From assembly GCF_003144245.1 (NCBI RefSeq), contig NW_020289984.1, positions 496,001 to 560,000 of the forward strand: a stretch of DNA of 64,000 nt, read 5' to 3'. The position numbers were made by a program, and so were the translations under genes. The stretch is from Jaminaea rosea. Lineage: Eukaryota > Basidiomycota > Exobasidiomycetes > Microstromatales. Positions 48,451 through 61,533 of the stretch are shown here, piece by piece (the stretch's first letter is position 1; each line of letters starts with the position of its first letter). Below the pieces are notes generated by a model. The model ran no database searches. It saw only the letters and a program-made list of their open reading frames with translations, and had not been told where the DNA came from.

Positions 48451-48740
48451 CGCGCGAGGGGTGCGCGCGAGGGGGTAGAGGCTTTCAAGAAATACACAGG
48501 CCAATTGGGACAATGATTCAATTTATTGTGATGTGAAAGTGGTGTAATGTATTTTGACATCAGCTTCGAGCATGGTGCGCGAGGTGAACAACAGGGTTCG
48601 GCGACACTCAAGACCCTACGTGGGCTTGTACCAGATGTCGACAGAGCTGGGCACCTGGTCGAGCGTGAGCTCGTCGGGCCACTCGCCTGCCCGAAGCGAA
48701 GGCCAAGGACACTGAGTCAGTCTGGCCCGCCAATGGTGCT

Positions 48741-49341
48741 TCATTCCTCCTCAATCGTATACGTACAGTCATCGTTGGCATTGACGTACCAGCAGGCGGG
48801 GCTGACAGCCTGCTCAGAGTTCGCTCCCAGACAGATGGCGAAGTCCTCTTCAGGGCAGTAGTCGTGAGGCCATACGTACCATCCACCATCACCGCAGGGG
48901 GTGCCTGAACAGCGAGAAGGGCAGAGTCAGTCAGACACTGAGACGTACCTAGCTAAGGTCAAGAGCAGCTTACCAAAGTTGAGTATGTTATCCCTCAGCA
49001 CATTCCAGTCGGCGACCCGCGATGGCTCGTCTCGGTGGACACCGGTGCAAGAGTACGTGCCGATCGTCCTGTAGAGGCCAGTATTGATGTCCACCTCTTC
49101 CTTCAGAGTGACAGGAGCGTTGCAGAACTGCGGTAAGCGAGGGTGAGATCAACGTCAGCTACGCGAAGCATCATGAGGAAAGCGGCACGCGCGGCCGCCT
49201 ACTCGCCTTCTCGTATTTGTACTGATTGGGAGACCCGATTCCCGGCTTCCAGGTGCAGACCATGTGCTTGGCCTGGTAGGCTGGGGCGAGAGCCATCAAG
49301 GCGAGTGCGAAGGGCGTGAGGGCGAAGGTGAGGAAGACCAT
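48741..49341 (-). CDS. Secreted 8-Cys protein, paralogue B, three exons with a GC-AG intron
   Basis: Exons are 49341-49207, 49127-48974 and 48904-48741, giving 150 aa. A signal peptide with a Phe/Leu/Ala core ends near AYQAKH. The mature part shows HMVCTWKPGIG, YKYEK, FCNAPVTLKEEVD, GTYSCTG, FGTPCGDGGWYVWPHDYCP, AICLGAN, PACWYV and NDDCTY. Layout, exon-2 length (154 bases) and the non-canonical GC donor of intron 1 match paralogue A at 30.2 kb. The ATG at 49341 is chosen because the frame extends upstream to 49452 but would spoil the signal peptide. The gene is divergent from the first member of the tandem array and shares about 400 bases of promoter with it. Confidence 0.8.
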
Positions 49342-49738
49342 GGTGAGTACGCGAGATGCGGAGAGGGTCCTAGAGCTGTGAAGGGCCCAGCTCAAGTACC
49401 TCTCGCCAAGATTTAGGCTCAAGAGCGGCGCTGTGTACAACCCTTGGCCCAAGAAGCCCTACCGGAGTTCTGTTGGCGCTGTCGTCGGCCCTTTGCTACC
49501 GCGGCACATTATGGCGTCGCTCCGGAGTGTCAGCCATACGGTACACCTGGGCGCTTTTGATGCCATCCCTGTCGGGGGAAGTCTTCCGACCCAGCGATTG
49601 TCCGCAGCAACGACGGCTGTGCTCTGCGGGACAGCTGACCCTGTTGCGCCTTGGCGTCCGGGTGAGCAACTCTTGGGGCTCCGACGATCTCGCTGCTGCA
49701 CTTTGTCACCACACCTACGCCGCTCACGGACACCACGC
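49342..49738. other. Divergent promoter between paralogue B and the array
   Basis: About 400 bases between two secreted-protein genes on opposite strands. It is a candidate shared control region for the two families. Confidence 0.5.
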
Positions 49739-50461
49739 ATGTCTCGCCTCCTGCAGCTGCTCGCCATTGTATTGGCTACTGCGGCATCTCTGCCCGCTGT
49801 GCAGGGTGCGAACGCTACGCTGAGTAGGTGGGCAACTCTCATCGAATTGTGGCGGGATGGATGCTGACTCCCTTTGCAGTCCATGCCTGTAATGAGGAAA
49901 GGAACCGCCACTGTGAGTCAACCATAGCAAGGCGTGCTGAGCTAAGGCCGCTGACGGTGTGCCCGCGTCTAGGCTTCTACACTCCTCGTGGAGAATACCT
50001 CGCTCATCCTAACAGCATCGACCTCACCGATGATGACAAGCTGCTTTGGCTGGAAACCGATGAGACCGGCGCGAGTGAGTTGCGCTTGCCTTTCTGAACC
50101 GCAGCATCTGACTCAGAACACTCGCCTGACCTTGCAACTTCGCTCCGCAGCCACATATCTCTTCGACGAGGGGTCTCACGGCAGCTTCGCCGTCAGCTGC
50201 CTGAACGGTGGCGGCAGGAATGGTTTCTACTTCTCGCTGAACCGCAGATACTCGGTCATCACCCACGCCGCTTTGTCGTCTGGTAAGGCTACGGTCGCTT
50301 TCAATGACGCGATGTCCACGCAGGTGAAGTCCAGGCGCGTGATTGCAGCGGACCTTTCGGCCTGATAACCTGTGCTTCGCCCTCTTAAATTTATAGCCGC
50401 TGGGAAAGCCATCTACAGTTACCACGCTGGGGTTGATGTCATTATTCGCTGCCCCGTCTAG
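49739..50461 (+). CDS. Array member 1: small secreted protein, five-exon plan
   Basis: Exons 49739-49823, 49880-49912, 49973-50074 and 50151-50323 fit the family plan exactly in length and phase. A signal peptide of about 24 residues precedes IHACNEERNRHC, then FYTPRGEYL, and the core TYLFDEGSHGSFAVSC, RNGFYFSLNRRYSV and KATVAFND. A last segment near 50397-50461 contains the family ending AGVDVIIRCPV. The 3' end departs from the pattern of its neighbours, so the last exon is not firmly assigned and the copy may be starting to decay. Function is unknown. It belongs to the subgroup of members 1-5. Confidence 0.6.
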
Positions 50462-50660
50462 CGTATGCCTTGCAAGCCGCTCGATGCTCCTGATCTGCGG
50501 GTGATTGTCCGATCCGTGGCTGGAAGGATCGATATCAAACGCGCCGACGGCACGGGCCGCACTGTGGATCATACTGTAGGATGACCGATGGCAACGCGGA
50601 CCGCTTTGCTTGTCGCCGATGCCCGGCAGATGAGTGCATCCGATCGGCGACAATGACGAG
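50429..50660. repeat. Array upstream module, copy R1
   Basis: This module runs from the end of member 1 into the member 2 upstream region. It shares GATCCGTGGCTG, GCACGGGCCGC, GATGACCGATGGCAACGCGG and GATGAGTGCATCCGATCGGC with the modules at 51788 and, more loosely, 53074. Confidence 0.75.
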
Positions 50661-50724
50661 TTCCAGAGATGTCATATCTCCTGACCTCCTTTCCCTCCTG
50701 CATTAACCAGCCTTACCTCTTACA

Positions 50725-51479
50725 ATGCCTGCTCTTATCTTCCTCCTCGTCGTGACGGTGACTCTAGCCGTGGCCGCTCCTCCTCCAGCGGCTCGTGGTT
50801 CGATCGTCAGTGTGTATGCCCCTGATCGCTCGCCCGCTACCTGCGCTGATCGCTCCAAGTGATACTGCGCTCGCTGCAGCTCAACGCTGCCATGCAGACC
50901 CCAATGTCCATTGTGAGTCCCGAGAGAGCCGAGCAGTCGACGGCAAACAGTATTGACGAGTGGCATGTTTTCAGGCATCTACGCTAGCCAATCCGTGGTC
51001 GAATATCCTAAAGTGCGCATGTCCTCCGGCAGCGTCATTGCTACCGAGGTCGACAACATCGGCTCATGTAAGTTGCGGAGGCTGGTCTCTCGAGCACAAG
51101 GCTGACATCTCTTGCGTCGCAGCCACCTTCGTCCTTGAGCAAAATTCCGTCGGCTCCATCACGGTCAGGTGTGCAGAGGGTGGCGGCCAAAACGTTTTCT
51201 ACTTTCTCTTTCAGAACAAATTTTCACAGATCGACCACCGTCCGGAGTCTACTGGTCGGGCTACGATCGCTTTCAATGACGACGGAGGGCTTCATGTGAG
51301 GCAGTAGATCCAAGCAGCATCAGCTTCTCCTGCTGACCATTCGTTCTGCGATTCCGTGTTCACAGCCTAAACCCGGTTCGAGCGCATTCAGTCACATGGC
51401 AGGTGTCGATGCGACGATCTCTTGCCCGTTCGCAAAAGGGGTTGAGCACGAAGGCCTCGCTGATGCAAAGCTCGGCTAG
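50725..51479 (+). CDS. Array member 2: small secreted protein, five exons
   Basis: Exons are 50725-50809, 50880-50912, 50975-51067, 51123-51295 and 51366-51479, giving 165 aa in frame. A signal peptide with a Leu/Val core ends at APPPAARG. Exon 2 gives TQRCHADPNVHC and exon 3 IYASQSVVEYPK. Exon 4 has FVLEQNSVGSITVRC, GGGQNVFYFLFQ and ATIAFNDDGG. Exon 5 has the ending AGVDATISCPF followed by a 15-residue tail (AKGVEHEGLADAKLG) that most members lack. The four family cysteines are present. Confidence 0.8.
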
Positions 51480-51775
51480 GCTAGCCTACGCTCAGGCCCC
51501 TTCACTACTGTACTCCCATTTCATTCGCCACGTTCGACTGTGCCTTTCACATTCGACCCTTCCAAACCTTCCCTCATTGTCCGGCCAACTAAAGTCTCAA
51601 AAGAACTCAATACAAAACGAGATCTTCCCTCTCGCTCCGTCGTCGCTGAGGATGACCAGAATAGCGTGAGCGGACACAAGTCTTGGCGCGCTCGAGCCGC
51701 GCCTCGATCTGTCATGGCACTGCAAGACGTCCCGTGCCCCTCTGGCAATTATCTATCTGCTGGGAACGGTATCTG

Positions 51776-51832
51776 GACAGTAGTCAACACGCTGAGCTTC
51801 ATGTCACGGTTCGCTGTCCCTTGCACCATGCT
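51776..51832 (+). pseudogene. Remnant of an array last exon
   Basis: A short stretch reading AELHVTVRCP resembles the GVD-type ending of member 1 and sits in the same position relative to the upstream module. No signal-peptide or core exons are found beside it. It looks like a leftover edge of a duplicated unit. Confidence 0.5.
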
Positions 51833-51985
51833 TTTGACCTGCGTGTGATCATTCGATCCGTGGCTGAAAGATCGAAATCAAATCCGCCGCAAACGGCACG
51901 GGCCGCTTTGTGAGTCGTAGGATGACCGATGGCAACGCGGGTGGTCTGGCAGATGAGTGCATCCGATCGGCGGCGATGATGAAAT
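51788..51985. repeat. Array upstream module, copy R2
   Basis: It is closely similar to R1 at 50429: GATCCGTGGCTGAAAG, AACGGCACGGGCCGC, GGATGACCGATGGCAACGCG and GATGAGTGCATCCGATCGGC occur in the same order. It sits upstream of member 3. Confidence 0.8.
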
Positions 51986-51991
51986 GGATGC

Positions 51992-51997
51992 TATATA
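51992..51997 (+). promoter_or_regulatory. TATA-like box of array member 3
   Basis: TATATA lies 61 bases upstream of the member 3 ATG, a plausible core-promoter spacing for a fungal gene with a short leader. Confidence 0.4.
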
Positions 51998-52057
51998 CAG
52001 TACTCCAAATTTTCCTCCTTTGCCTTCCTACATTCCACTGGCCGCACTCTTACTACA

Positions 52058-52896
52058 ATGCTTCCCCTTGCTCTTCTCATCGTCGTCACAGCGACTCTCG
52101 CTGTGGCCGCTCCTCCTTCCGCAGCTCGTGGCACTTCCATCTGTGCGTACCGTTGGCAAGTCGACTCCTTACGGCACGCTGACCGTTCAGAGCGATACGC
52201 TACCAGCTCAACGCTGCAATGCGGATCCCAATGTCCACTGTGAGCCGCGAGAGTCCTGACCGCGTCGAGAAGGAACACGAATCACAACTTGCATGAGCAC
52301 AGGCATTTACGGCCCTCCCATCAATGCACGTGTACCTAATTATGCCTGTCCAACTATGGAATGGGGCAAAATCATCGATTACGAAATCGACGAGATAGGC
52401 TCCGGTGAGTCGACATTGCTGATCTGGCAGGCACAAGGTTGATATTTCTTGCGCCGCAGTCACTTGGCTGATCGAGGACTATTCGCTCGGCTCCATGACC
52501 GTAAAGTGTGCGAAGGGAGGCGGTGTCACGCCACGTGGCACGCGTGGAGGCCCGTTCAACTTATGTTTACCAGTTCTCTCCGTCGTACTTTCTTACCTTT
52601 AATACCATTCTTTCATCCCCCTCTGAACTGGTACAGGCGGCTCGAACGATTTTGAATTTTACTTCAACAAGAATTATTCGTCGATTGAGCACCAGCAAAG
52701 TTCGACCGGTCACGCTACGATGGGCTTCAATGATGGCGTTGGGGGTCATGTGAGGCAACAGACCGAGGCAGCGCCGCAGAGTCTCCTGCTGACGCCGACG
52801 CTGCCCCATTTCCTCATGCCATACCAGCCTGCCCCAGGGGCTCTCTTCACGACTCGGATGCTCGGTGTTGACGCGACGATCCACTGCCCATTCTAG
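52058..52896 (+). CDS. Array member 3: small secreted protein, six exons with a gained intron
   Basis: Exons are 52058-52142, 52207-52239, 52303-52404, 52460-52522, 52637-52749 and 52828-52896, giving 154 aa in frame. It has a signal peptide, then SQRCNADPNVHC, CIYGPPINARVP with two extra cysteines in exon 3, WLIEDYSLGSMTVKCAKGGG, SNDFEFYFNKNYSSIEH, ATMGFNDG and the ending GVDATIHCPF. The core exon that is single in all other members is split here by a 114-base intron (52523-52636) placed inside the Gly-rich turn. Without removing it the core would not align. It is the only member with six exons. Confidence 0.78.
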
Positions 52897-53073
52897 GCAG
52901 TGGCGAACACGAAAGCTCGACCAGGCTACAGGGCTGTAGCGTGCGCTCAGGTCCCCTCACTACTGCCATCTATCCGCCACATTCTACTGTGCTTTTCCAT
53001 TCGACTCCTCCAGACCTTCCGTCACTGTCTGGGCTTGTAGTCGCGCTTCGCGGTCCTGTCTAATGCCCTGTCT

Positions 53074-53290
53074 ACCAGTAGCGTCTACCTTGCAGACCGC
53101 TCGATCATCGTGGTCTGCGGGTGATCATGTGAGCCAGGAGCAGCGAAGATCAATTCTATTCCGTCGCAAAGCAGCTTGAGCCGGTACAATAGGCTACAGG
53201 AAGACCGACGGTAACGGCCGCGTGAATGATGCATGCGCGGCGGTTCAGTGCCTCCGATCGGCGCAACTCTTCGGCGATGGGCACGAAATG
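53074..53290. repeat. Array upstream module, copy R3 (diverged)
   Basis: It resembles R1 and R2 with more changes: CTTGCAGACCGCTCGAT, TCTGCGGGTGATCATG, GAAGACCGACGGTAACGGC and CCTCCGATCGGCG occur in the same order. It lies upstream of member 4. Confidence 0.6.
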
Positions 53291-53378
53291 AATGCTACCG
53301 TATACAGACGAGACGACACACCAATACCCTTTAATTTCCTAGCCATCGCTCCGTCCTTCCATCAGCCCTGCCCCGACC

Positions 53379-54129
53379 ATGCTTGCACGCCTAACTCTGC
53401 TTCTTGCCGGACTGGCGACCATGCTTGCGGCCGCTCCTCCTCCTCCCGCGATTCGCAGAGCTTCCATCGGTGAGTACCTTGTTGGCCGTCAGGTTGCCAG
53501 CGCTGACTAGTCCGAGCGATACCTGCCTACCAGCTCAGCATTGCAATGGGGACCCCAGTACTCACTGTGAGTCACTTGAAGACTCAGATCGTCGATCAGG
53601 CAACGTTCTGTACAGTACGGTATTGACGAGCTGCATGCTGTATTGTCAGGCATCTACACCCCTCCCCAGGAGTCAATTGCTGATTGTGGATGTCTCCCGG
53701 TGAAAGTATTCCGCGGCCAGGCCATCGACCAGCAGGTCGACGCCATCGGCTCAAGTGAGTCGCAACAGCCAATCGGCCAAGCCCGAGGCTAATTGGTCGC
53801 GTGCCGCAGTCACTTATCTCCTGACCGAGAGTGCAAGTGCCTATACCACGGTCAAGTGCGCCAAGGGTGGTGGCGAAAACTTCTTCGTAATCTACATGGA
53901 CAAGGACTACTCCTCGATTCAGCACTACCCAAACTCGACCGGTTTGGCCACGATGGGCTTCAATGATGGTTCTGGGGCTCATGTGAGGCCACACGACCAA
54001 GCAACGCCGCAGACGTCCGTACATTACTTACGTTGCGTTTGTCTCGGGTTCATTCCACAGCCTGCCCCAGGGTCCACCGTCAGCACCCGAATGAGAGGTG
54101 TCGACGCAACGGTACACTGCCCGTTCTAG
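53379..54129 (+). CDS. Array member 4: small secreted protein, five exons
   Basis: Exons are 53379-53469, 53534-53566, 53650-53754, 53810-53982 and 54061-54129, giving 156 aa. A signal peptide ends near LAAAPPPP. Exon 2 gives AQHCNGDPSTHC, exon 3 IYTPPQESIADCGC with two extra cysteines, and exon 4 TYLLTESASAYTTVKCAKGG, ENFFVIYMDKDYSSIQH and ATMGFNDGSGAH. Exon 5 ends GVDATVHCPF. All phases agree (1, 1, 1, 0). It is closest to members 2 and 3 by eye. Confidence 0.82.
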
Positions 54130-54560
54130 GCGCTGATCGGTACGAAGGTCTTAGTGAGGGAAGGCTCTCCAAGCCTAGCGTAGTTCCGGGCCCCATTCAG
54201 CTCCTATAGTCTCTATGCTCGAGTCCTCTACAGCGCTACTAGATCCTCATTCAACGATCCAACACCTCCATTTGAATGACATATCTCACCGACGATATCA
54301 GTGAAGAAGAATACAGTGTTGTACGTCGTCTCGCCACGAGATGACCTACTTGTACGGGCCTTTCAGACTCTCTGTCCACGTAGGACTCTCAAGGTGGTCG
54401 CGCCGGCGCTGCTCGGCAGCAAGCGTGTCATAGCGGTGTCGCAGCGCCGGCTGCTGAGCTGCGGCGACCGTGTTGGAGCGCCGATGTCAAATCCAGGTAG
54501 TGCTCCTTCTCGTTACCCATCTCTTCCCTTCTCACTGGCTAGTCCACTCTTCAGATCAAC

Positions 54561-55284
54561 ATGCTCCAGCTCGTACTACTGTTTGCCCTCGCAGCCACGA
54601 CTGCTGTGGCTCGCATTGCCAAGACTCGAGCCCCCTCGATGGGTGCGTCATCTGCTCATCTGCAATCTCGCTGCGCTGACCCAACTGTACTCGCTGACCA
54701 GCTCAAATCTGCAATAGATCACCTAACGCGCATTGTGAGCCACGACGAGTCTCGTAGCGCCAGAGTGGAGGACTGAACACTCCACCGTACGCAGGCATCT
54801 ACACACCTCCTGGTGAATCACTCGCCAATGGAACGGCTCCCACGATTCACATGTTCTGGGGCCAGATTTTCTACCATGAGGTTGACGCAATCAATTCTTG
54901 TGATGTCGTGGCGGTACCCGCAAAGTTGCAAGCAATTGGCTCACATGCTTCCGCCCTACAGACACCTTCGTCATAGGCGACGATGCTCGAGGAAACATCA
55001 AGATCGCATGTGCGAAGGGCGGCGAGAACGAATTCGCCTTCTTCTTCAACAGCACGTACTCGTCGATTGTGCACCAAGCGTCTTCGACCGGTCAGGCCAC
55101 GATGGGCTTCAATGACGGAGGCGATGCTCATGTGAGGCACGAAATCTAGCAGCGTACCGAGACCTTGTATTCACCGGCAATCGACCGCCTCTTCGCTCCA
55201 CAGGCAGCTAGAGGCAGAATGATCGATACTCACGCCAAGGCTGTCGACGCGACGATTCACTGCCCCTTCTGTAATGATCCTTGA
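54561..55284 (+). CDS. Array member 5: small secreted protein, five exons
   Basis: Exons are 54561-54642, 54702-54734, 54795-54899, 54962-55131 and 55204-55284, giving 156 aa. The signal peptide is LVLLFALAATTAVA-like. Exon 2 gives AQICNRSPNAHC, exon 3 IYTPPGESLANG, exon 4 TFVIGDDARGNIKIACAKGG, NEFAFFFNSTYSSIVH and ATMGFNDGGDAH, and exon 5 KAVDATIHCPFCNDP. It combines the FNDG...H style of members 1-4 with the 170-base core exon of members 6-10, so it looks intermediate. An extra Cys lies in the tail. Confidence 0.8.
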
Positions 55285-55452
55285 GTGCAATCGGTGCTGC
55301 TGCAGAGGCGGTGACTCAATACTTTCTTCCACTTTGCCATTGCGGCATCATAACGGCGATCGCCCTCTGCCCTGCTCTGACTTGCCGACGATGTGAGCCT
55401 CGCTGAACATTGCACCGCTTCATCCACTGCTTTACACCCAGTACATCGCAGA

Positions 55453-56178
55453 ATGCTCCTCAGCCTTATTGCTCTGTTGGCCTACGCTTGCTTCATCGCA
55501 GCCGACCCGGCTGAAGATGTGCGTGAGTACAGTACAATACGACGAGACCACTGACGAGACCAGCTGGATCTTGCTGAACCATGACTGCCTACATCGTGCG
55601 CGTACACAGAGGCCCTGTGCAATGCGGCTAACAATGCCTACTGCGCGTACTTGAAACGAAAGGCGAAGGACAAGGTGACCTCAGGCTGAGCCTGCTGCCG
55701 CACTCACAGGCTTCTACTCGCCCATCGCGGCCTTTCTATGGAGCATCCCAGAAGTCAAGACCGAGACTGGCTCCATCCTCGCCCAGGATCGCGATGCCGT
55801 CGGCTCAGGTGAGTTATGGTCTTCGTCAGATTGTAGCACAGTAGCTCTTTGCCTCACACGACGCTACGCACAGTCACGTATCTCCTCGACGAAGGCAGCA
55901 CTGGAGAGTACATCATCTTCTGCAAGAGTGTCGGGTCCAATCGCTTCACCTTCTCGCTTGGTCTGCCTGGAAGCCAGATCACGAGTGATCCCGCTTCGAG
56001 AGGGCCTGCCCGCGTGTACTTCAACGACAATCCGGACGTCTATGTGCGTGTGCGAGTGCAACAAGCGACCGAGATGCGAGACTGACTGTTGAATACCCTG
56101 CATCAACAGGCTAGTCCGGGCCAGACGATCAAGAGCTCCACACCTGGCGTCGATGCGACAGTGACGTGTCCTCACTAA
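55453..56178 (+). CDS. Array member 6: small secreted protein, five exons, one GC-AG intron
   Basis: Exons are 55453-55522, 55610-55642, 55710-55808, 55874-56043 and 56110-56178, giving 146 aa. A short signal peptide (LLSLIALLAYACFIAA) is followed by ALCNAANNAYC, FYSPIAAFLWSIPEV, GSILAQDRDAVGS, TYLLDEGSTGEYIIFC, SNRFTFSLG, ARVYFNDNPDVY and GVDATVTCPH. The donor after exon 2 reads GC where other members have GT. Exon length and phase hold only if that site is used. It is the first member of the CPH-ending subgroup (6-10). Confidence 0.8.
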
Positions 56179-56321
56179 GCGGCGGTGTCGTGACAGCTAA
56201 AGAGGTCCTGTGACCTGCCCATCCCTCCGAATCGATGTCCACCTCTCCCTCGTCGCGAGCGTTGCCCCCGTACCCTTGCGCCAGTGATCGTGACTGTCAC
56301 GCCGTGACCCTGGCCCTTGAT

Positions 56322-56341
56322 TGACCCTGACCCTGACCCTT
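56322..56341. repeat. Short TGACCC tandem
   Basis: Three TGACCC units in a row between members 6 and 7, within the member 7 upstream region. Confidence 0.6.
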
Positions 56342-56470
56342 CATTGCCGCTCGCCCGCAAAAGCGGCGGGAGGTCTTCCGACGCACGTCAAGCAAGTCCA
56401 TTACCTGATGCTCGAGCTGACACTCTTTGCTTCTCTCCTCATCCTCACCCACAAGTCTCGACTCCCCACA

Positions 56471-57195
56471 ATGCACTTTATTCTCACAGCATTGGCCTTG
56501 TCCGCCTACCTCGTCGCGTCGCTCGTCCAGGCCGAGCCCAGCACCATCCGTGAGAGGCACGCCTGTCCTGCTTGCCAAGTCGTTCGAGCAGAAATGACAC
56601 CTCCTTTCTTCTCATTGCGCGCTCGCAGAGCTGGCCTGCCAGAGCGCCGATAATGCCCATTGTAAGTCACAGCGAGAGCCAAAAGTTCGGCCATGGCTTC
56701 CGGCTAAACATACCGTTTTGGCGCAGGCATGTATTCTCCAACCGCTGCTCAGCGTATGGAGGACCCTACGATGTCCACGACGACTGGCTCTGTCCTTCAC
56801 ACCGAGAGGGACGGTAAAGGTGTCAGTGAGTACGATTATGTCCGCCCCTCCTCCACCTTGCATTCACAACGTCCTCGACTGGTCCCAGTCACCTATCTAA
56901 TGATGGACGGAACGACGGGCAGCATGCTCATCTTCTGCAACGACGGCGGCAGCAACCGCTTCAACTTCAGTTGGGCCCACGGCGCAAGCTCCATCGTGGG
57001 TGACCCGTACGTGCATGGCAACGCCAAGGTGTACTTCAACGACATGCCCAGTCGCCTGGTATGTGGCGGTGCAGACGGCGTCAAAGTGCTTTCACTGATG
57101 CGAGCTATTCGCTGCTTGCCGACCAGGCCGGTACGGGAGAGACCATCGCTAGCTCCGCGGCTGGGATTGACGCTACGGTCACGTGCCCTCACTAG
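56471..57195 (+). CDS. Array member 7: small secreted protein, five exons
   Basis: Exons are 56471-56549, 56629-56661, 56727-56825, 56889-57058 and 57127-57195, giving 149 aa. A signal peptide (FILTALALSAYLVASLVQA) is followed by QLACQSADNAHC, MYSPTAAQRMEDP, TGSVLHTERDGKG, TYLMMDGTTGSMLIFC, GGSNRFNFSWAHGASSIV, AKVYFNDMPSRL and GTGETIASSAAGIDATVTCP. All donors and acceptors are canonical and the phases match the family. Confidence 0.83.
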
Positions 57196-57476
57196 TGGGA
57201 GGCGGCTGGGCATGTTAGCTCGCTTGTTGCACCTCCATATCCTCAGACTTTATCCCCTTCTCCTGCCTCTTGCTTCAACCAAGCGGCCCGCCACCTTGTC
57301 GCCGCTCACGAGTGGCATCGCTGACGGCCCGTCCAAACGACAATTGCGAGTAGTGAGCCGCTGATGACTTCCTCGCCATGCGAGATTGCCGGTCACCATC
57401 TATCTGTGCCAATGGTCGATGCTCCGTCCGCTTGAGTTGAGTCTCTCTTCACCTCGCCTGATACGCTTCACCAAGC

Positions 57477-58184
57477 ATGCGCTCCATGAACCCCACCTTC
57501 ATCGCCCTATGCGCCTTCCTCACCGCCGCGCTCGCCAGCGCTTCGACCCTTCGTGAGTCAAGGGGCGGCAAAGCATGAGCCACGGTCTTCTGACCGACTC
57601 CCTCCTTCCTACGTACCTACAGCTCAAGTCTGCAACGGCGCAAAGGACGCTCATTGTGAGTGTTGCTAGCGAACAGGCGCCTGAGACGTGTAGAGAAGGA
57701 GAACAAGCTCACTCTCCTTCTCGCGGGATCACAGGCCTCTATACCCCTATCGCGGCGTATCGTACCCAAGATCCCGAGATCAAGGCCACGAAGGGCGCCA
57801 TCGTCAGCCAAGAGAGGGACCCTGTAGGTTCCATCACCTACCTGATCAAAGACGGCACTGCAGGCCAACTTACGATCTTCTGCCACGATGGAGGAGGCAA
57901 CAAATTTCTCTTTGACTTTGGTCAGGGGGCTAGCTCGATCGTTGTGGACTCGGTGTTGAACGGTAATGCCAAGGTGTACTTGAATGACAATCCTGGTGTT
58001 TACGTGAGTACGAGGGGCGAAGAGCGAGGAGCGAGGGGCGAGGAGCGAGCAGTCAGCAAGTGCGAATCATGATTCTGACTCCTCCCCCTCCCTTTCGTTC
58101 GTCTGCCAGGCCGGCATAGGCCAGACGCTGATCTTGCGTAGCAACTCTGTCGGGGTTGATGCTACGGTGACCTGCCCCCACTGA
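57477..58184 (+). CDS. Array member 8: small secreted protein, four exons (one intron lost)
   Basis: Exons are 57477-57552, 57621-57653, 57735-58003 and 58110-58184, giving 150 aa. The third exon is 269 bases, exactly the sum of the usual third (99) and fourth (170) exons, so the intron between them is absent without any gain or loss of coding bases. The protein has a signal peptide, PQVCNGAKDAHC, LYTPIAAYRTQDPEI, GAIVSQERDPVGSITYL, GQLTIFCHDGGGNKFLFDF, AKVYLNDNPGVY and GVDATVTCPH. Members 8 and 9 share QVCNGAKDAHC and look like recent sisters. Confidence 0.85.
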
Positions 58185-58449
58185 GTGTGCTTACTCTCAT
58201 AGTTGTTGTGCCCCTATGCGCTCGCTCGTCCCAGCGCTTGCCCAAAATGAAAGATCATTAGCGACCCATCATGCCCACTCTGATCGTGAGCCCATACTGT
58301 CATAAAAACCCGCAGGCTCCTTCGCGATCCTTACCCTGGGAGTGCTCGATCGCGACGACAGCGGCTTGCCTCTCGCCCACCGCCTCGCTGTTCTGCTGTT
58401 GAGCCGCCTACATCACTCTCTCTTCTATCCACCCATCCTGACTTCCACC

Positions 58450-59231
58450 ATGCACCTCGTCGCCATTACCTTAGTCGCTTTCGGCGCTTTCAGCGCTCTC
58501 TTCGCGAGCCGCGCCTTTGGAGGTGCCACTCTACGTGAATTGACTTGCTGCACACCTTGTGTGCACCTTCTGATCTGTCCAGCCCCTTCTCACCTCGCAG
58601 GCCAGGTCTGCAATGGTGCCAAGGACGCTCATTGTGAGTCGAACGAGTGCGAGAGGCTCGTCGACCCTAAGAAGGCGAGTTGATTCCCATACCCACCTCG
58701 TCTGCCTTCTCGAAAGGCCTCTACTCGCCGATCGCAAACTACCGTAATGCGGATCCGGATATCGACATGACGAGGGGCGACGTGGTCAGTCAAGAGAGGG
58801 ACGCCGTCGGTGCCAGTGAGTGCGTCGGGCGGGGGCAGACTCGATCATTGGCGTCGAGTCGCAGCTCTGCTTTCCTCGATTCACCTACTCGTCCTGCCCC
58901 GCGCAAACATCGCAGTAACCTACCTGCTCAAAGACGACTCGGCCGGCAAGATGACCATTACCTGCTCGGATGGCGGGAGCAACAACTTCTTCTTCGAGTT
59001 TGGACACACCTCTAGCTCCGTGACTGTCGACACGGCGGATCATGGTAACGCCAAGGTGTACTTTAATGACAACTCGAACAATTATGTGAGTGTGTGCGAG
59101 GCGGGCATGAGGTGACAGGCGTAAAGAGCTGACACTGTGCTTGCCCTTTGCTGTTTTGACAGGCTGGCACCGGCCAGAGTATCCATAGCAGTAGCCTTGG
59201 TGTTGATGCGACGGTGACGTGTCCTCATTAG
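58450..59231 (+). CDS. Array member 9: small secreted protein, five exons
   Basis: Exons are 58450-58534, 58601-58633, 58717-58815, 58916-59085 and 59163-59231, giving 151 aa. It has a signal peptide rich in Leu/Phe/Ala, RQVCNGAKDAHC, LYSPIANYRNADPDI, GDVVSQERDAVGA, TYLLKDDSAGKMTITC, GGSNNFFFEFGHTSSSV, AKVYFNDNSNNY and LGVDATVTCPH. The acceptor before exon 3 is AAAG rather than the usual CAG. A CATAAAAA element lies about 150 bases upstream of the ATG. Confidence 0.83.
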
Positions 59232-59544
59232 TGGTACAAGTACGAGGCAGACGTTGCGCGGACCACCTGCGGGCAGGCAAACGTCGACGTCGCAAATACG
59301 AGTCTATTCATCCATCCATCTGTCAATCAGACTCACCGTGACTCGGTGTCCCGTATGACAAGGCCCTTTGCCCATCGTCGGCGCTATTTCACAGCCTCAT
59401 TGTGGCAAGCCGTTGCCGTTGCCATTTTGCTGGTGCTGCGGCTCCATTTCGCCAAGCCAGCTCTTCTTTGCTCGCCTCTCGTCTTTCGGCTTCGACATTG
59501 ATCCTCTCCCTCTGTCGGATTTTCCTCCCACCTTCTGGCGCACG

Positions 59545-60393
59545 ATGAGTCACCTCGCCTTCACCATCTGCGCTGTGGCTACTATGCTCCTTCTCACCAT
59601 CAGCACGGCCGTCCATGCCGACCAGCTTAGTGAGCGACGGACAGTCTCACCAAGCTGCTCTGAGGTGACTGACTTCGGGTCTACTGAGCGAATCCTCGAG
59701 CAGGCGAGTACTGCAATGCGGCCGTCAATGCGCACTGTAAGTAACTCCCCTCTCACGAAGAGTTGACGGGAGGGCCGTGCCATAATGCCTGCGGAGCTCC
59801 TCGCCTCGACGACCGTCGCAGGCATCTACACCCCCATCAGAGCTTTCCGTCTGCAAGACCCGCTCATCAACATCACGAACAACGGCGGCATCATCGCCCA
59901 GGAGACCGATGCCATCGGCTCCAGTGAGCATGCTTTATCCTGCCGACCTCGAGCCTCGACACCCTCTGACTCCCCTCTATCCGGACACACTCTTCCGCAG
60001 TCACTTACCTGATCGTAGACAACACTCAAGGCTACTTGACGATCATGTGCTCAGATGGGGGCAGCAACAGCTTCCAGTTCTACTTTGAGCACAGTGGAAG
60101 TGCAGTGACGAATGAGGAGAGACTGCACGGATTGGCTTCCGTCTACTTCAATGATATGCCGGATAGCTATGTGAGTGCCGCGCGTAGGGAGGGGTCGAGC
60201 GCTGAGTGAATCGATGCATGCTGATCAAGGGACGCTGTGTGTGGATGTGGACGTGGATGTGGTGCAGGCTGGGCCGGGTGAGACGATCATCAGCTTCTTT
60301 GCCGGGGTGGACGCGACGGTCACTTGTCCTCATGACAACAAGACGAGCGCTGCTGGGCTGACGAAGCGGAGGATACGAATGAGGAGGCCGTGA
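59545..60393 (+). CDS. Array member 10: small secreted protein with a basic tail, five exons
   Basis: Exons are 59545-59629, 59704-59736, 59822-59923, 60001-60170 and 60268-60393, giving 171 aa. It has a signal peptide (TICAVATMLLLTISTAVHA), SEYCNAAVNAHC, IYTPIRAFRLQDPLI, GGIIAQETDAIGS, TYLIVDNTQGYLTIMC, GGSNSFQFYFEHSGSAV, ASVYFNDMPDSY and AGVDATVTCPH. The frame then continues for about 19 residues, ending KRRIRMRRP, a strongly basic tail seen in no other member. It is the last member, and TPI1 follows about 310 bases on. Confidence 0.83.

Positions 60394-61533
<1,140 letters not shown>

Follow-up and report, generated by a model that had tools for sequence, protein, structure and literature searches.

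Large species-specific families of secreted proteins are best known from plant pathogens. By genomic analogy, the nearest precedent for the locus described here is the Tin2-like array of Ustilago maydis, for which the source reports tandemly arranged secreted proteins, core beta strands, subclusters, purifying selection, and members elsewhere in the genome (PMC9816061). In that work, a structural survey covering mostly pathogens, nearly species-specific effector families of more than 15 members were seen only in a few of the species surveyed; the clusters in that survey are structural, and their sizes are not strictly comparable with the 16 members counted here (PMC9816061). The locus examined in this study is an array of ten plus-strand genes, g1 to g10, at positions 49739-60393 of a 64,000-nucleotide stretch (the window; C10:496001-560000) of the Jaminaea rosea genome (Microstromatales, Exobasidiomycetes; 16.6 Mb, 21 contigs). 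We tentatively favour the view that the array encodes an orphan, lineage-restricted family of small secreted all-beta-sandwich proteins with four fixed cysteines, which would act as extracellular binding proteins and would have evolved by birth and death of copies. With ten genes in one array and a total of at least 16, a phylloplane yeast that can be cultured would offer a tractable case for asking what such families do.

Gene models were obtained by enumeration of splice variants and subsequent fitting to the shared plan (Table 1). The relatedness of the ten genes, proposed in an earlier note made from the sequence alone, was borne out by two lines of evidence. In a leave-one-out analysis, a profile hidden Markov model (HMM) built from the other nine members detected every gene (10/10) at 90-186 bits, whereas none of 1068 decoys exceeded 11-15 bits; the decoys comprised the open reading frames of window positions 1-49000 and 320 shuffled members. 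The models of g5, g6, g7, and g8 are identical, letter for letter and over their whole length, to the GenBank proteins P0001-P0004. GenBank protein P0012 contains all residues of g4, plus 26 codons of intron 4, while g1 matches P0005 in 120 of 133 aligned residues, with differing 3' ends. Five GenBank proteins matching window genes are Jaminaea rosea entries. No GenBank protein was found for g2, g3, g9, and g10 in searches that would miss some. The ten paralogues share 28-65% identity in the mature part, and the identity matrix splits the array into g2-g5 and g6-g10, with g1 standing apart.

The genes also share a splicing pattern. The five-exon plan proposed earlier holds for eight of the ten genes but not for g8, which has four exons, and g3, which has six. 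The 33-base exon 2 that splits a Cys codon is present in all ten, in g6 by way of a GC-AG intron and in g9 by way of an AAG acceptor. Intron sites occupy the same alignment columns and phases throughout the array, apart from the last intron of g1, the absent intron 3 of g8, and the new intron of g3. The g1 counterpart of the donor used elsewhere in the array enters a frame without the GVD..CP end. Either splicing starts from a donor lying 41 bases upstream, with loss of a conserved strand, as modelled here, or this copy is decaying. The GenBank models of g1 (P0005) and g4 (P0012) treat intron 4, in part or as a whole, as coding (50283-50396 and 53983-54060, respectively), and P0010, the model of a family member at 580 kb of the same contig, runs into intron 3; these three records may need revision. 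Positions 8-113 of the extra g3 intron are 73% identical to a dispersed repeat at C11:2636-2742, and the motif AGGCGG is present at both of its edges. This intron looks like the product of a mobile-element insertion with a short target repeat. Introners are described as insertion-made introns of this kind in other lineages (PMC9860276); only two copies of the g3-intron repeat were found, and no introner family is claimed.

The genome search, performed with g9, g4, and two outside members as queries, showed that the family extends beyond the window. At least six more members lie outside the window, which gives at least 16 in all; exons were scored separately, and these counts are lower bounds. 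The six outside models scored 38-167 bits against the window profile. Their gene structures vary: those at 198 kb lack the third intron or both the third and the fourth, the gene at 569 kb lacks the first and fourth introns and has intron 2 displaced by seven bases, and the member on C17 is intronless and encodes 158 amino acids.

The four conserved cysteines were confirmed in all ten window models and in 16/16 proteins once the outside copies were included; the fourth Cys of g1 depends on the gene model and is absent from P0005. Besides the initiator Met, only these four residues (Cys29, 37, 86, and 148 in g8 numbering) and one aspartate (Asp143) are invariant in 16/16 members. Full-length proteins contain 4-6 Cys in total (16/16), and the four fixed ones may possibly form two disulfides. 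With a single invariant residue other than Cys, there is no sign of a catalytic set; nearly invariant polar residues do occur among the 16 members and would allow for an enzyme. Three shorter motifs claimed for the family were recovered in most of the array but are not universal. As counted by eye on the alignment, Y(T/S)P is present in 8/10 genes (missing from g2 and g3), GS where exons 3 and 4 meet in 6/10 (missing from g1, g5, g7, and g9), and the exact GVDAT-x-x-CP end in 7/10 (missing from g1, g5, and g7). If the mature proteins are taken to begin immediately ahead of the first fixed Cys, they comprise about 110-143 amino acids and 12-16 kDa.

The description of the family as secreted, beta-rich, and unnamed stands in large part, with secretion as a prediction. 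A hydrophobic N-terminal stretch followed by a permitted cleavage site was identified in 16/16 members by our own heuristic (not SignalP). The beta-rich core is supported by AlphaFold2 models of two members, both predicted to be all-beta: g8, with a predicted local distance difference test score (pLDDT) of 82.4, and g5, with 84.2; 71/150 and 93/156 residues, respectively, have pLDDT >=90. The predicted fold would be an all-beta sandwich of 10-11 strands carrying the four fixed cysteines. No named family was recognized, in agreement with the earlier note: no Pfam family was matched at its cut-off, and a sequence search of PDB returned only rows at chance level (E 0.29-0.77). Weak Pfam rows below the cut-offs were set aside: KdpF matched the g7 signal peptide at E 0.0099, SOTI matched g4 at E 0.041, and another four rows had E 0.1-0.5. 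The viral fold library gave no match at E 0.001. RALPH, MAX, Alt a 1, and KP4-type folds were not among the fold matches listed, which does not exclude them.

The fold matches listed for the two models include thaumatin-like, aegerolysin, fruit-body-lectin, and actinoporin sandwiches, with middling similarity. Many proteins with these sandwiches bind glycans, proteins, or lipids. For each model, Foldseek gave its best E-value (2.3e-3 and 5.0e-3) with fungal fruit-body lectins (PF07367), but the template-modelling score normalized to the query is only 0.28-0.37, and there is no sequence match: PF07367 was found in 0/10 window proteins, in 0/6 outside members, and nowhere in the genome at E 10. 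Fruit-body lectins are also not known to carry a signal peptide, whereas one is predicted for members of this family. No sequence match was obtained with aegerolysins (PF06355) or actinoporins either, and their cysteine framework and signal peptide differ from those of the family; PF06355 matched 0/10 window proteins and 0/6 outside members, and the genome search was likewise empty, with a silent control. Thaumatin-like proteins have 16 conserved Cys, 10 in the small ones, and one or two fewer in the fungal small ones (PMC3048497). The present family has four conserved Cys instead of the 10 or 16 of thaumatin-like proteins (PR-5 and the small type, e.g. wheat TLXI). Membership in that family fails because of this cysteine count and the lack of a Pfam match: PF00314 was found in 0/10 window proteins at E 1 and in 0/6 outside members at E 5. 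The thaumatin signature occurs in 0/16 members; the rejection also took in an hhalign comparison with a three-member profile. Elsewhere in the genome, PF00314 has matches above the cut-off on C4 and C14 and a weaker one on C18. The latter (L009, C18:107041-110271) is a divergent thaumatin-like gene with 25.5 bits against a cut-off of 27.4 and apparently at least two exons.

Two further readings were weighed. The proteins could constitute an undescribed beta-sandwich family that is smaller and poorer in Cys than the thaumatin-like one and may have branched off, as an extreme case, from the thaumatin or the lectin/actinoporin sandwich, with at least 16 surface binders that a leaf yeast not known to us as a pathogen would use against neighbours or for leaf attachment; we consider this unlikely. 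Alternatively, they could be microbe-directed antifungal or antibacterial proteins that would bind the walls or membranes of competitors, as thaumatin-like proteins and aegerolysins can. We rate this reading as distinctly unlikely.

The least probable of the interpretations weighed here, and a quite improbable one, is an expanded set of constitutive proteins that sit on the yeast's own cell surface or wall and play no antagonistic role. Such proteins would be compatible with the average purifying selection described below, and the UniRef name of the GenBank protein of g4 mentions a Tos1-type cell wall protein, a name not backed by Pfam. We rejected the Tos1 identity of g4: no Tos1 Pfam match was obtained at E 10, and the genome search with PF10287, whose control was silent, gave no support. 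Beyond the N-terminus, the members also have no further hydrophobic stretch (15-residue means reach 1.49 at most), which speaks against a surface location as well.

The dN/dS ratios (nonsynonymous to synonymous substitution rates; Nei-Gojobori) range from 0.23 to 0.65 in the 43 of 45 pairs for which they were computable; the other two are saturated. All computable ratios are thus below 1, with no sign of positive selection, although these are pairwise means on near-saturated distances (dS 0.93-2.88 between array pairs). On average this points to purifying selection on old copies, and it neither demonstrates nor rules out positive selection at individual sites. The tree of 16 members is poorly resolved (a star on 1/13 inner branches, with h_L005, h_L003, and g1 on long branches), and for this reason only those groups that also appear in the identity matrix were used. 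Traces of past duplications are preserved between the genes. Between g2 and g3 lies what is left of a last exon of the g1 type, one of two matches in about 550 exon-region comparisons, and a second scan placed it identically. The other, shorter match, near 49602-49624, covers 23 bases of the first exon of g5 (score 29 vs 20) and was taken as chance because of the number of comparisons made. A block upstream of g3 scores 222 with the g1-g2 region and 115 with the region upstream of g4, compared to best scores of 38 and 43 in 200 shuffles; no such block was detected upstream of g5 or g6 (scores 31 and 26). The copied upstream regions of g2, g3, and g4, together with the decayed exon, suggest duplication of units exceeding a single gene and loss of some copies. 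The array would accordingly have grown by tandem duplication, and the family combines intron loss and a repeat-related intron with the birth and death of copies.

Plant-directed effectors, secreted into leaf tissue and altering host physiology like the Tin2-like cluster, are another interpretation, and a rather unlikely one. In its favour, the proteins are small, beta-rich, predicted to be secreted, encoded in tandem, and subject to purifying selection, as are Tin2-like effectors (PMC9816061); the small-secreted-protein and tandem-array features of that class are present here, with secretion predicted by the heuristic. The subphylum also includes smuts, and the paralogues diverge to the extent given above. 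The likeness is genomic: the Tin2-like family is a virulence-linked one of a pathogen, and no sequence relation to it was found in the database searches. Purifying selection on average is no hallmark of effectors, and structurally similar, sequence-unrelated secreted families may not be restricted to pathogens (PMC9816061). J. rosea is listed as a phylloplane fungus (PMC7766764), and no disease report was met in the literature passages; this listing is a weak argument, since the same list includes the pathogen U. maydis. The genus is described as made up of widespread plant associates (PMC8880017). An effector role of the array is possible. The extracellular binding proteins that we favour are suggested by the predicted signal peptide combined with a fixed scaffold and variable stretches between the fixed positions. 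Outside the cell, variable loops on this scaffold would recognize glycans or lipids that belong to the surface of the yeast itself, to that of the leaf, or to microbes nearby.

Searches of protein databases (5.8 billion proteins; E limits 0.01, 1, and 10) matched only J. rosea entries and unnamed environmental pieces. These searches require shared 5-residue words, of which at most 100 were used, and one of them scored only 8000 candidates and overlooked g4's own GenBank protein, which a different search found. The lack of relatives outside Jaminaea is, for these reasons, weak evidence of absence. The pieces labelled lgn are taken to be environmental assemblies. Their best matches are g9 for P0006, the C17 gene for P0007 (134/158), a 198 kb gene for P0008 (89/92), the 569 kb gene for P0009 (58/58), and the 580 kb gene for P0011 (72/81), which indicates that J. 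rosea or close relatives carry the family in nature. No relative was found among viral contigs, Rfam and tRNA searches returned nothing, and no account of the family was found in the open-licence literature on Jaminaea and Microstromatales. The family is new to the resources searched, while its general kind is familiar.

Table 1. Coordinates of the array genes, associated features, and outside members of the family (window positions unless a contig is given).
Feature	Position	Strand	Exons	Amino acids	Remarks
g1	49739..50461	+	49739-49823, 49880-49912, 49973-50074, 50151-50282, 50397-50461	138	3' end doubtful; P0005 reads past 50282 and ends without last Cys
g2	50725..51479	+	50725-50809, 50880-50912, 50975-51067, 51123-51295, 51366-51479	165	Splice modelling, leave-one-out HMM
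g3	52058..52896	+	52058-52142, 52207-52239, 52303-52404, 52460-52522, 52637-52749, 52828-52896	154	One extra intron
g4	53379..54129	+	53379-53469, 53534-53566, 53650-53754, 53810-53982, 54061-54129	156	All 156 residues inside P0012
g5	54561..55284	+	54561-54642, 54702-54734, 54795-54899, 54962-55131, 55204-55284	156	= P0001, 156/156 residues
g6	55453..56178	+	55453-55522, 55610-55642, 55710-55808, 55874-56043, 56110-56178	146	GC-AG intron 2; = P0002, 146/146
g7	56471..57195	+	56471-56549, 56629-56661, 56727-56825, 56889-57058, 57127-57195	149	= P0003, 149/149
g8	57477..58184	+	57477-57552, 57623-57655, 57735-58003, 58110-58184	150	Without intron 3; = P0004, 150/150
g9	58450..59231	+	58450-58534, 58601-58633, 58717-58815, 58916-59085, 59163-59231	151	AAG acceptor at intron 2; P0006 (environmental piece) matches 56/58
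g10	59545..60393	+	59545-59629, 59704-59736, 59822-59923, 60001-60170, 60268-60393	171	Basic C-terminal tail; splice modelling, leave-one-out HMM
Remnant of g1-type last exon between g2 and g3	51759..51820	+			Local score 40 vs best 25 in 40 shuffles
Shared upstream block of g3	51821..52034	.			Common with g1-g2 region (to 50704), fainter with 53029-53266 upstream of g4
Extra g3 intron inside core exon	52523..52636	+			114 bases; related to dispersed repeat
Outside members, three genes	C10:198-200 kb				Genome search
Outside member	C10:569 kb				Genome search
Outside member	C10:580 kb	opposite			Genome search
Outside member	C17				Genome search

The array is flanked by two further genes. Adjoining g1 on the minus strand (48616-49341, spliced by eye) is a divergently transcribed gene. 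Its product is another small protein that contains Cys and begins with a hydrophobic stretch, and Pfam gave no match to it at E 1. At the other end, the array is bounded by a triosephosphate isomerase gene (60705-60941; Pfam TIM on the first exon, 65.8 bits).

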